From Pullulanibacillus sp. KACC 23026 (GTDB lineage: Bacteria; Bacillota; Bacilli; Bacillales; Sporolactobacillaceae): a DNA stretch of 64,000 nucleotides. Below the pieces are notes generated by a model. The model was not told the DNA's origin and searched no databases. It was given only the letters and a program-made list of their open reading frames with translations. Below are positions 54,424 through 57,114 of this stretch, one piece after another. The stretch is from positions 1,798,001-1,862,000 of the forward strand of contig NZ_CP119107.1 of NCBI RefSeq assembly GCF_029094525.1, read 5' to 3'. Positions within the stretch are counted from its first letter, which is position 1; every line of letters begins with the position of its first letter. A program made the translations under genes and the position numbers.

Positions 54424-54493
54424 AGGGGTACCACCCGTTTTTTAACATAAAACCCTCTCTAATACATTTTTTTGGAAGTTAAAACCCTGATTT
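54424..54493 (+). repeat. Island flanking repeat, copy A
   Basis: GGGGTACCACCCGTTTTT, then ACATAAAACCCTCTC and TAATACATTTTTTTGGAAG. About 70 bp, near-identical to copy C at 56264. Confidence 0.85.
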
Positions 54494-54620
54494 TGTATCA
54501 AAAGTCTAACGTTGTAAATCTGCATTTTCCTGACGCAGCCCCTTCAAGGATAGAAAAGGCTATATGCTCTTTCATCTTTTAAAAATCAAAGGATAGGCTC
54601 TAATGGACATTATAGAAGTC

Positions 54621-54690
54621 TATAAAAAATTGTACTCTAGAACATTTTATCGAAATTAAACCCCTGATTTTCTAGGCTAGGTAGAATTTC
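54621..54690 (+). repeat. Island flanking repeat, degenerate copy B
   Basis: TATAAAA...CTCTAGAACATTTTATCGAAATTAAACCC...GTAGAAT aligns with the second half of copies A and C with several changes. Confidence 0.55.
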
Positions 54691-54770
54691 ACTATAAAAT
54701 TTTGGGAATTTTAACATTTTTAAAAAATCAGTGTTAAAATATGGTTATAAACTAAAAGGAGGGATTTTTT

Positions 54771-55805
54771 TTAAAAAAAAACATATTTAGGAAATTGGGA
54801 ATGGGGGTTTTTGCAACCGTATTGGCTTATGGTGTAATACAAAGTGCACCAAAAGCACATGCCGAGACAGTAAGCAACTCACCCGATGTAATTTCCAGTG
54901 CACACCATAAAACTAATAGAGCAGATACGTATTATGTTATTCCGCCAAAAAACTTTGATCCTCAAAATGCTAGTGATGCCGAACTTAAAACCTTTGGATT
55001 TCCTAAAAGGCCTAAAGATTCTAAACAGTTGTTATCATGGAAAGAAAGTATGAAGCACGCCAAAAAGTTTGTTGTACCAACGTTTACCAATACAAACAAA
55101 GTTAATGCTCAATACACTTATACATCTCCTAATTGGTCTGGATACGAACAAGAAGAGTACAGCACTCACCAATTTGATGATGTCGAATCTAAATGGACAG
55201 TTCCATCTGTTTCTAGTAGTAAAAGTAATACAGATTCGTCGGCATGGGTAGGTATAGGTGGTGACTCAAGTCTTAGTTCGACTTGGAAATTGATTCAAGC
55301 AGGAACAGAGCAGGATAAAGGTAGTTCCTCTACAAACTATTATTTTTGGCATGAGGAATTGAGCTATAGTGCTGGTAATCCTGAAGTTAAAGTTACCAGT
55401 ATTGCATGTAGACCAGGAGATAATGTTCTTGTCTCAGTAAGTTATAGTTCGGGAGACGTTCACTATTTTCTTGAAGATACTACCCTTAATACTTATACTC
55501 AATTTACAGTCACAAATAAATCTGCTTATTACAAAGGAAATTCGGCTGAATATATTATGGAGAGACCTGAAATCGGTAATTCCTATAGTTACTTAGCAAA
55601 TTATGATTTTACCTCTTTTTGGGGAGCTAGAGCCTCCTATTCTGGAAGTTCAACCATGTATACACCTGGTGAGTGGAGTTCAAACGGACATATTCTAGAT
55701 AAGCTTAATATGAACGATGGAAATCTCTTAACGAGTACAGGCACTCTTTATAGTAAAGATTTCACTAATGATGCATTTGGAGTTACCTGGCAAGGCTATC
55801 ATTAA
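54771..55805 (+). CDS. Secreted G1 family (glutamic) endopeptidase, non-canonical start
   Basis: About 345 residues. A signal peptide KKNIFRKLGMGVFATVLAYG...APKAHA is followed by a propeptide-like region and the eqolisin beta-sandwich: NWSGYEQ, WTVPSVS, SSAWVGIGGDSS, the catalytic Gln in KLIQAGTEQ (Gln168 counted from TTG 54795), YYFWHEEL, and the catalytic Glu in SAEYIMERPEIG (Glu252). G1 peptidases work at acid pH. AAGGAGGG (54756-54763) and the basic signal-peptide region both place the start at a TTA codon at 54771; the first ordinary start in frame is TTG 54795, which loses the basic region. The gene is AT-rich and lies between direct repeats, suggesting transfer. Confidence 0.8.
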   Translation, partial: LKKNIFRKLGMGVFATVLAYGVIQSAPKAHAETVSNSPDVISSAHHKTNRADTYYVIPPKNFDPQNASDAELKTFGFPKRPKDSKQLLSWKESMKHAKKFVVPTFTNTNKVNAQYTYTSPNWSGYEQEEYSTHQFDDVESKWTVPSVSSSKSNTDSSAWVGIGGDSSLSSTWKLIQAGTEQDKGSSSTNYYFWHEELSYSAGNPEVKVTSIACRPGDNVLVSVSYSSGDVHYFLEDTTLNTYTQFTVTNKSAYYKGNSAEYIMERPEIGNSYSYLANYDFTSFWGARASYSGSSTMYTPGEWSSNGHILDKLNMNDGNLLTSTGTLYSKDFTNDAFGVTWQGYH

Positions 55806-55840
55806 TCATTTCATAATCTTTGAAATTTGAGGTGATTACA

Positions 55841-56251
55841 ATAAAAAAAACATTTGTATACGTACTTGTTTGTATACTCTGTATAACTGTATCAGCGTGT
55901 TCTCAAAAAAAAGAATATACCGAGATTGATAAAAACCAAGTGGATTTTATCATCATTAATAAATCTACCCCGGAAAGCAGTAATCCAGTAGTAAAAAAAT
56001 TAACGGGTAAAGATATGGAGGGTTTAATAGATAAAATTCAAAAAGCAGAAAAGAATGTAATGAAGGATGGGAAGTATAATTGTCAAGGTTTATCAAAAAG
56101 ATCAGTGATCTATTTGATAAATGTTGTTTCACTGAAGAATAATGTGCGAACATTTGCAAATACGGGGATCTGTGGCTCTTTATATGACGAAAAAAATAAT
56201 ATCTCTTTAAATTCAAAGATTCCAAGTCAACTAAATAAATATTTTAAATAG
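55841..56251 (+). CDS. Small lipoprotein of unknown function, non-canonical start
   Basis: About 137 residues. The signal sequence KKTFVYVLVCILCITVSACS ends in a lipobox (VSAC), so the mature protein is lipid-anchored. The mature part has two further Cys (YNCQG and GICGS) and no recognised domain. GAGGTGAT points to the ATA codon at 55841 as start; in-frame GTG 55832 lies inside that Shine-Dalgarno sequence and TTG 55820 lacks one. The gene follows the G1 peptidase by about 35 bp, probably as an operon. Confidence 0.7.
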   Translation: MKKTFVYVLVCILCITVSACSQKKEYTEIDKNQVDFIIINKSTPESSNPVVKKLTGKDMEGLIDKIQKAEKNVMKDGKYNCQGLSKRSVIYLINVVSLKNNVRTFANTGICGSLYDEKNNISLNSKIPSQLNKYFK

Positions 56252-56263
56252 AAAAGTCACTTA

Positions 56264-56335
56264 TGGGGGTACCACCAGCTTTTTGACATAAAACCCTCTC
56301 TAATACATTTTTTGGAAGTGAAAACCATGATTTTT
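56264..56335 (+). repeat. Island flanking repeat, copy C
   Basis: GGGGTACCACCAGCTTTTT, ACATAAAACCCTCTC and TAATACATTTTTTGGAAGTG; direct orientation to copy A 1.84 kb away. Confidence 0.85.
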
Positions 56336-56431
56336 CTACACTAAGCAGAATAATCATGGTTTTCATATAGCCTTTTTTTGATAACAATTTTATCATTTCC
56401 AAATAGTATCATATTTAACTAACGCTCACCG

Positions 56432-57055
56432 CTAGTCTCCATGCAGCGCAAAAACCAGCGCTACACCCATTAGCTTTGCAAACAACTTACAGGTTTTGGG
56501 AACGTTTATTTCGGCTTCACAATCTCTTAAAATCCCAACAGCCTTTTCTGGAACAGGGAGCTCATCAAGAACCTTCACCTTGGAGTTTGCATTGACTCGA
56601 GCGACAAAGAGATAGCCTTCTTTTACCCATATGTAAAAGTTTTTATATTTGATGTATCCTCGATCAAAGACATAGGTAGTATCCTTATCGATCACCAAAT
56701 AGTCCACCCCTTCTTTATCCGATACAGCCCCTGTTGAAAGGATGAATTTCTCTGGATAGGCACTTTGACTATTGATTAAACAATAACTCATATGGACTTT
56801 GATTGAGTTCTTGTCTTTTTGAACGTACGCCCATTCTCCAGCTTTTTTAGGTAGACTAATCTCGCTTGCATCGACTAGGTTTAATTTTCCGATTTTAGGA
56901 AATGGAATCTCTTTTTGGTGGTGAAAACTCACTTGTTCCATGGATCTTAAGCATAAGTTTTTAATAAGATCTAAGGGTATCTTTTCGAGTTTTCTATGTA
57001 AAAAAGACTCATGAATTTCATCAAGATTTGTGAGTTCTCTCACCGATTTATTCAC
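56432..57055 (-). pseudogene. IS4-family transposase fragment
   Basis: 207 codons open, with LVDASEISLP (first catalytic Asp strand) and TTYVFDRGYIKYKNFYIW (second Asp and the IS4-type Y-x-x-x region). The catalytic Glu region and the C-terminus are missing: the end VALVFALHGD is not a normal IS4 tail. The same frame stays open upstream without a proper start. No terminal inverted repeats were found. Confidence 0.75.
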
Positions 57056-57114
57056 TCTTAAACTAATGACGATATCAGAAAGTGAAGGCAGATTGTTTTG
57101 AGGAATGAAGCTTT

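Follow-up and report, generated by a model that had tools for sequence, protein, structure and literature searches.

Genes and Repeats of the Locus

The window is the whole stretch of 64,000 nucleotides that was analysed; the genome to which it belongs is a single contig of 4.80 Mb with a completeness of 100 (Bacilli). Two neighbouring genes for secreted proteins are found on its forward strand. The frame of the first, a glutamic peptidase gene, is open from stop to stop over 349 codons (54756-55805); counted from the TTA discussed below, it extends from 54771 to 55805, is intact and ends with TAA. Its product matches the Pfam profile PF01828 (Pfam profile search, E 3.4e-25, profile positions 1-196 of 206). 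The profile and the catalytic residues both designate it as a predicted member of MEROPS family G1/Pfam Peptidase_A4. Residues Q176 and E264 (numbered from the TTA) are invariant in all six aligned sequences and align with the heavy chain of aspergillopepsin II. These two residues are taken to be the G1 dyad, partly from the numbering of the family and partly from E219 of AGP (PMC3009609). The peptidase resembles pepG1 of Alicyclobacillus, also a secreted bacterial G1 peptidase with a Gln/Glu dyad; this likeness is to the published description of pepG1, and that text makes no mention of a "start codon" (PMC3009609).

The second gene encodes a lipoprotein (lipobox VSAC). Its stop-to-stop frame (55817-56251) is open over 144 codons, and the coding frame proper (55841-56251, forward strand) is intact. 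No family match was obtained for this protein in Pfam and NCBIfam at E 0.001, nor for five members of its family in Pfam under E 0.06; its structure model is poor (pLDDT 52).

The gene pair is flanked by direct repeats of about 70 nt, 91-94% identical to each other: left copy, 54425-54494; right copy, 56266-56334, both on the forward strand. The right copy adjoins a truncated transposase gene of the IS4 family (56432-57112, reverse strand), which covers positions 40-232 of the 332 of model NF033592 with 81.9 bits, a score under the family cut-off of 115. The direct repeats and the transposase remnant fit an accessory, possibly imported, locus. An AT-rich motif of about 27-70 nt is found at 54425-54494, 54645-54671 and 56266-56334, and once elsewhere in the genome (G000:C1:72014-72138); a hairpin accompanies it at 56319-56365. 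The motif is perhaps the end of an insertion sequence. Upstream of the peptidase gene, a promoter-like sequence (TTAACA-18-TAAAAT, with TG ahead of the second hexamer; 54711-54740, forward strand) is a match to the consensus only; 13 such matches are found in the region vs 11.5 expected in shuffled sequences.

Start Sites of the Two Genes

Both genes have a strong Shine-Dalgarno sequence (SD) at a fitting distance from a codon that is none of the standard ones, and both encode at that site a signal peptide beginning with Lys-Lys, followed by a frame that stays open. Pairing energies were calculated with the 3' end of 16S rRNA taken from the window itself (GGATCACCTCCTTTCT). The SD of the peptidase gene, AAAAGGAGGG (54754-54763, forward strand), forms a duplex of -13.7 kcal/mol; 8 nt past its GGAGG stands TTA (54771-54773), which is contained in a T8-A9 tract (54765-54781). 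The SD of the lipoprotein gene, GAGGTGAT (55829-55836, forward strand), reaches -13.5 kcal/mol, and the leader reads GAGGTG, 6 nt, ATA AAA AAA, with the ATA at 55841-55843. A preliminary description had located the two starts at these codons on the basis of the SD and of the signal peptides (KKNIFRK for the peptidase, KKTFVYV for the lipoprotein), and the energies and distances bear this out. ATA differs from AUG at one position and is a near-cognate codon; TTA differs at two, one more than near-cognate codons allow. An energy of -13.5 kcal/mol or better is found for 0.2% of 20,000 random 21-mers from the genome sample and for none of 534 local intergenic windows. Docking of ribosomes at both SD sites is well supported by this comparison; initiation at these sites is putative.

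Standard codons are present in frame at other places. For the peptidase, TTG 54795 and ATG 54801 (54795-54803, forward strand) have a poor SD (-4.2 and -5.9 kcal/mol, respectively), and a protein begun there has a signal peptide without its basic residues. For the lipoprotein, GTG 55832 lies inside the SD. The earlier statement that standard starts are unsuitable was right for these three codons and wrong for a fourth, TTG 55820 (55820-55822, forward strand): it is located upstream of the SD and itself has none (+2.7 kcal/mol), but a protein read from it retains the entire signal peptide (MKFEVITIKKTFVYVLVCILCITVSAC). It sits 14 nt past the peptidase stop.

The proposal that slippage at the T8-A9 tract could restore the peptidase start was abandoned: the 25 combinations of T6-10 with A7-11 give no ATG, GTG or TTG in any frame. 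A hairpin that could couple the two genes, in which the lipoprotein SD pairs with a stretch just past the peptidase stop, was also discarded (whole fold, -10.6 kcal/mol; z -0.78, which is no evidence for it).

Relatives of the Two Genes

The genomes compared include no second species of the genus of the window; Tuberibacillus calidus DSM 17572, which belongs to the family of the window (Sporolactobacillaceae), is the closest relative found in which the two genes are both present. At the level of the class, 50 of 398 genomes have a peptidase match, and at that of the order 3 of 397 (own genome included in both). Leaders were scored for T. calidus (L002) and for the seven best class-level matches (L009-L015); the other loci, matched mostly in the catalytic part, were left unscored for starts. 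All eight inspected relatives have an SD-led standard start: TTG in T. calidus (AGGGTGATTAAA TTG AAA AAA ATT), ATG in L009, L010, L011, L013, L014 and L015, and GTG or ATG in L012. A scan of the contigs of named relatives with the single peptidase sequence gave no match; the scan based on alignment A3 gave 33 peptidase loci, the start being read only for that of T. calidus (L172). Distant matches (<30% identity) occur on two plasmid records. A phage search with the peptidase and a plasmid search with the lipoprotein gave no match.

At E 0.01, lipoprotein matches turned up in 7 of the 398 class genomes, the own genome among them. L041-L043 were used; L044-L046 were dropped as weak, as were L038 and L039 (E 0.05). 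Further searches gave 5 matches in 41 and 2 in 4, from which L207, L208, L209 and L211 were added. An SD-led standard start is present in seven of the eight relatives inspected (ATG in L041, L042, L207 and L208; GTG in L043 and L209; TTG in L211), although three of these seven carry less weight: the match in L207 is interrupted by a stop, L208 is without the lipobox Cys and L211 has a short frame. In L042 (genome G604), the leader reads GAGGTG, 6 nt, ATG AAG AAA, a geometry that matches that of the ATA of the window.

The eighth relative, T. calidus, is ambiguous. Its lipoprotein leader consists of GGGAGGTG followed by TTG ATA ATA, the second ATA lying 6 nt after GAGGTG; an in-frame ATG GTT AAA AAA, without SD by eye, is found sixteen codons past this second ATA and aligns within one residue of the start of the window gene. 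The gene could begin at a standard codon, either the TTG directly after the SD or the internal ATG. An 11-codon out-of-frame leader that stops 5 nt upstream of this ATG may precede it (L002/L172).

None of the relatives inspected begins at a downstream TTG or GTG with a different leader, an outcome that had been raised as a reason to doubt the two start sites. A rare start conserved as a general rule was rejected: the inspected relatives use ATG, GTG or TTG in eight of eight cases for the peptidase and in seven of eight for the lipoprotein, that of T. calidus being the ambiguous one. The same holds for a generally conserved gene pair: among 64 peptidase loci, only that of T. calidus has the lipoprotein gene nearby, and only one of 8 lipoprotein loci, again that of T. 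calidus, where the two genes converge, has the peptidase gene nearby (the loci extend no further than about 1.5 to 3 kb past the match).

Apparent Rare Starts in This Genome and in a Control Relative

Start counts refer to a sample of 1.662 Mb of this genome; the control relative is G020. An SD-led standard start was found for 992 of 1,416 main ORFs. Among the remaining 424, SD-led ATA and TTA together occur 9 times in frame vs 9 and 2 times in the shifted frames; taken together, they show no in-frame enrichment. With a stricter definition (SD of seven or more matches), an SD is found near the 5' end of 348 of 1,587 ORFs here (282 with a standard codon, 66 without) and of 143 of 813 in G020 (105 with, 38 without). 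Many of the non-standard rows were judged to be internal sites or standard starts at another spacing, and few are credible in either genome. Six rare starts were judged credible in the sample: those of the two window genes, dxr, an ABC exporter, an AI-2E-type transporter and an autolysin. Two, both ATC, were judged credible in G020 (L117 and L131). Since apparent rare starts are found elsewhere and in the control, and since SD-led ATA/TTA are not commoner in frame, no change of the code is indicated; a genome-wide change of start usage (66/348 here vs 38/143 in G020) was rejected as not supported.

The dxr gene (reverse strand; L061:17590-18747, G000:C1:3377611-3378747) appears to begin with CTG behind AAGGAGGTTTAACTT; its eight relatives in the family begin with ATG (6) or TTG (2). 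This gene is essential in most bacteria that have its pathway. An apparent CTG start behind a strong SD is also observed for the ABC exporter (L085:15018-16757, reverse strand) and for the AI-2E-family transporter (L157:10924-12066, reverse strand). The secreted PA14/glucosaminidase/SH3 autolysin (L069:5093-7450, forward strand) has an apparent ATC or ATT start, and no standard in-frame codon was found ahead of the middle of its signal peptide. In G020, a frame of L117 (around 14082, reverse strand; IINTIKFGSIEAGGTKF), presumably that of a ROK-like sugar kinase, has an apparent ATC or ATA start. The infC gene (L212, G000:C1:1369571-1370065) has ATT behind GGAGGTGG, and the ATT is found in all five family genomes examined, this one included; by analogy with the ATT of Listeria infC (PMC13068326), this ATT is read as the start codon.

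Fourteen SD-led standard starts followed by six A's and open for 40 codons were counted in the sample. A further 6 rows have an SD-led ATA, TTA or GTA ahead of six A's, and only the two adjacent window genes among them were judged credible; G020 gave 7 standard rows and 4 ATA/TTA rows. If rare starts arose independently, one would expect about 0.06 adjacent pairs in 4,500 genes (an assumed number) from six cases in 1,587 ORFs, or 0.03 from the four cases outside the locus, for a pair that was chosen because it is conspicuous. The adjacency of the two changes hints that they have one cause, for example a relaxation of selection on both genes or a consensus that is poor at this place.

Known Weak Starts

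In S. aureus, infC, ccpN and citZ have AUA starts behind a strong or extended SD (PMC13009471). The AUA of ccpN and citZ and the AUU of cvfC1 give about 10% of the output of AUG in poor medium; for ccpN, rich medium raises this to as much as 30% (PMC13009471). The likeness to the window genes lies in a strong SD at a fitting distance and, in place of AUG, a near-cognate codon. The closest parallel is citZ, whose AUA is confined to the NCTC 8325 lineage and is therefore a lineage-specific weak start (PMC13009471). Unlike the window genes, whose relatives have standard codons, ccpN has its weak codon in both S. aureus and B. subtilis, and cvfC1 has its own throughout staphylococcal species (PMC13009471). 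In Listeria monocytogenes, acid challenge gave variants of rsbW in which the ATG had become ATA or ATT, output decreasing in the order ATG, ATA, ATT (PMC13068326). As in the window, the third position of ATG is altered while the gene is otherwise intact; in contrast to the window, the change is in a regulator and was selected by acid challenge (PMC13068326). Start-codon weakening of this sort is an already documented kind of change.

These parallels concern AUA and AUU; UUA is absent from the text of PMC13009471. A literature search for UUA or TTA as the start codon of a bacterial gene found no case, as judged by titles. To our knowledge, no natural UUA start has been described in a bacterium.

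Origin of the Two Start Codons

The explanation to which we give somewhat better than even weight is that both genes derive from copies with ordinary starts and that each lost a third-position G in this lineage. The peptidase gene probably began with TTG, and the lipoprotein gene with ATG. A single third-position change had been suggested from the window only; it finds its counterparts in the TTG AAA AAA ATT of the T. calidus peptidase and in the ATG of G604, placed at the identical distance from GAGGTG, and relatives of both genes have standard SD-led starts. Ribosomes would still dock at both SD sites. AUA would initiate weakly, reducing the output of the lipoprotein; by analogy with the measurements in other Bacillota genes, it probably retains weak translation. 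UUA would mispair with the initiator tRNA at two positions, and the peptidase would be largely silenced; initiation at ATG 54801 or TTG 54795 might still yield a little of it, with a poor signal peptide. Decay or reduced use of the accessory locus would only just have begun. No stop, frameshift or loss of the active site was found in either gene (349 and 144 codons open, dyad kept), and for this reason the loss of the starts, and decay, if any, would be recent.

Several observations weigh against this loss. Intact frames are also expected if the genes are still used or if the bases were misread; in-frame SD-led ATA/TTA are no commoner than out-of-frame ones, and G020 itself has four ATA/TTA rows before six A's; the lipoprotein leader of T. 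calidus also has an ATA 6 nt after GAGGTG, beside its possible standard starts; and the lipoprotein relatives L207, L208 and L211 are of limited value as evidence.

The main rival, which we regard as unlikely, is an error of sequencing or assembly, the true bases being G, misread between the T8 and the A run in one gene and in the A run after AT in the other. Both sites border long A runs, the two changes lie within 1.1 kb of each other, and other conserved genes of the assembly show odd starts, such as the CTG of dxr vs ATG or TTG in all eight relatives. Against it, the 14 other SD-led starts before six A's (1.66 Mb) read as standard codons, the spectrum of A/T homopolymers is near that of a relative (for example, 10.8 vs 12.5 runs of nine per Mb), and the assembly is one contig with a completeness of 100. 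Homopolymer errors usually change length; the changes seen here are substitutions.

Quite improbable in our view is a translational throttle that has been kept: weak AUA and UUA codons behind a strong SD would limit the secretion of the presumed acid protease and of the lipoprotein or make it depend on the conditions of initiation, infC and ccpN being the models. The arrangement is that of the AUA and AUU starts of S. aureus (PMC13009471), infC has ATT behind a strong SD here and in the four relatives examined, the T. calidus lipoprotein leader has an ATA at equal distance, and the frames are intact. However, relatives do not share the weak codons, the T. calidus peptidase has a plain TTG, and its lipoprotein can use the TTG right after the SD or the internal ATG. 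UUA is, in addition, more than a single mismatch, and the titles retrieved from the literature include no bacterial case.

Ordinary annotation has very little chance of being correct; it would place the starts at TTG 55820 and at TTG 54795 or ATG 54801, the SD-like stretches being coding sequence or chance. These standard codons do lie in frame, TTG 55820 keeps the complete lipoprotein signal, and its position 14 nt past the peptidase stop would suit coupled initiation. Nevertheless, the SD energies are -13.7 and -13.5 vs -4.2, -5.9 and +2.7 kcal/mol, the SD-led standard start of the T. calidus peptidase and of the G604 and G423 lipoproteins immediately precedes Lys-Lys, the place taken by TTA and ATA in the window, and the peptidase would lose every basic residue ahead of the hydrophobic core of its signal peptide. 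That UUA and AUA both act as low-level starts behind the strong SD, the peptidase and the lipoprotein sharing one translational throttle, is the least credible of the readings, and would make this the first natural bacterial UUA start known to us.

Implications

If the bases are right, the locus would be a natural test of the extent to which a strong SD compensates for AUA and UUA. It would also be a snapshot of a secreted-protease locus being turned down through changes of start codon. The apparent starts of dxr, the ABC exporter, the AI-2E-type transporter and the autolysin suggest that gene callers limited to ATG, GTG and TTG would misplace N-termini in this genome.
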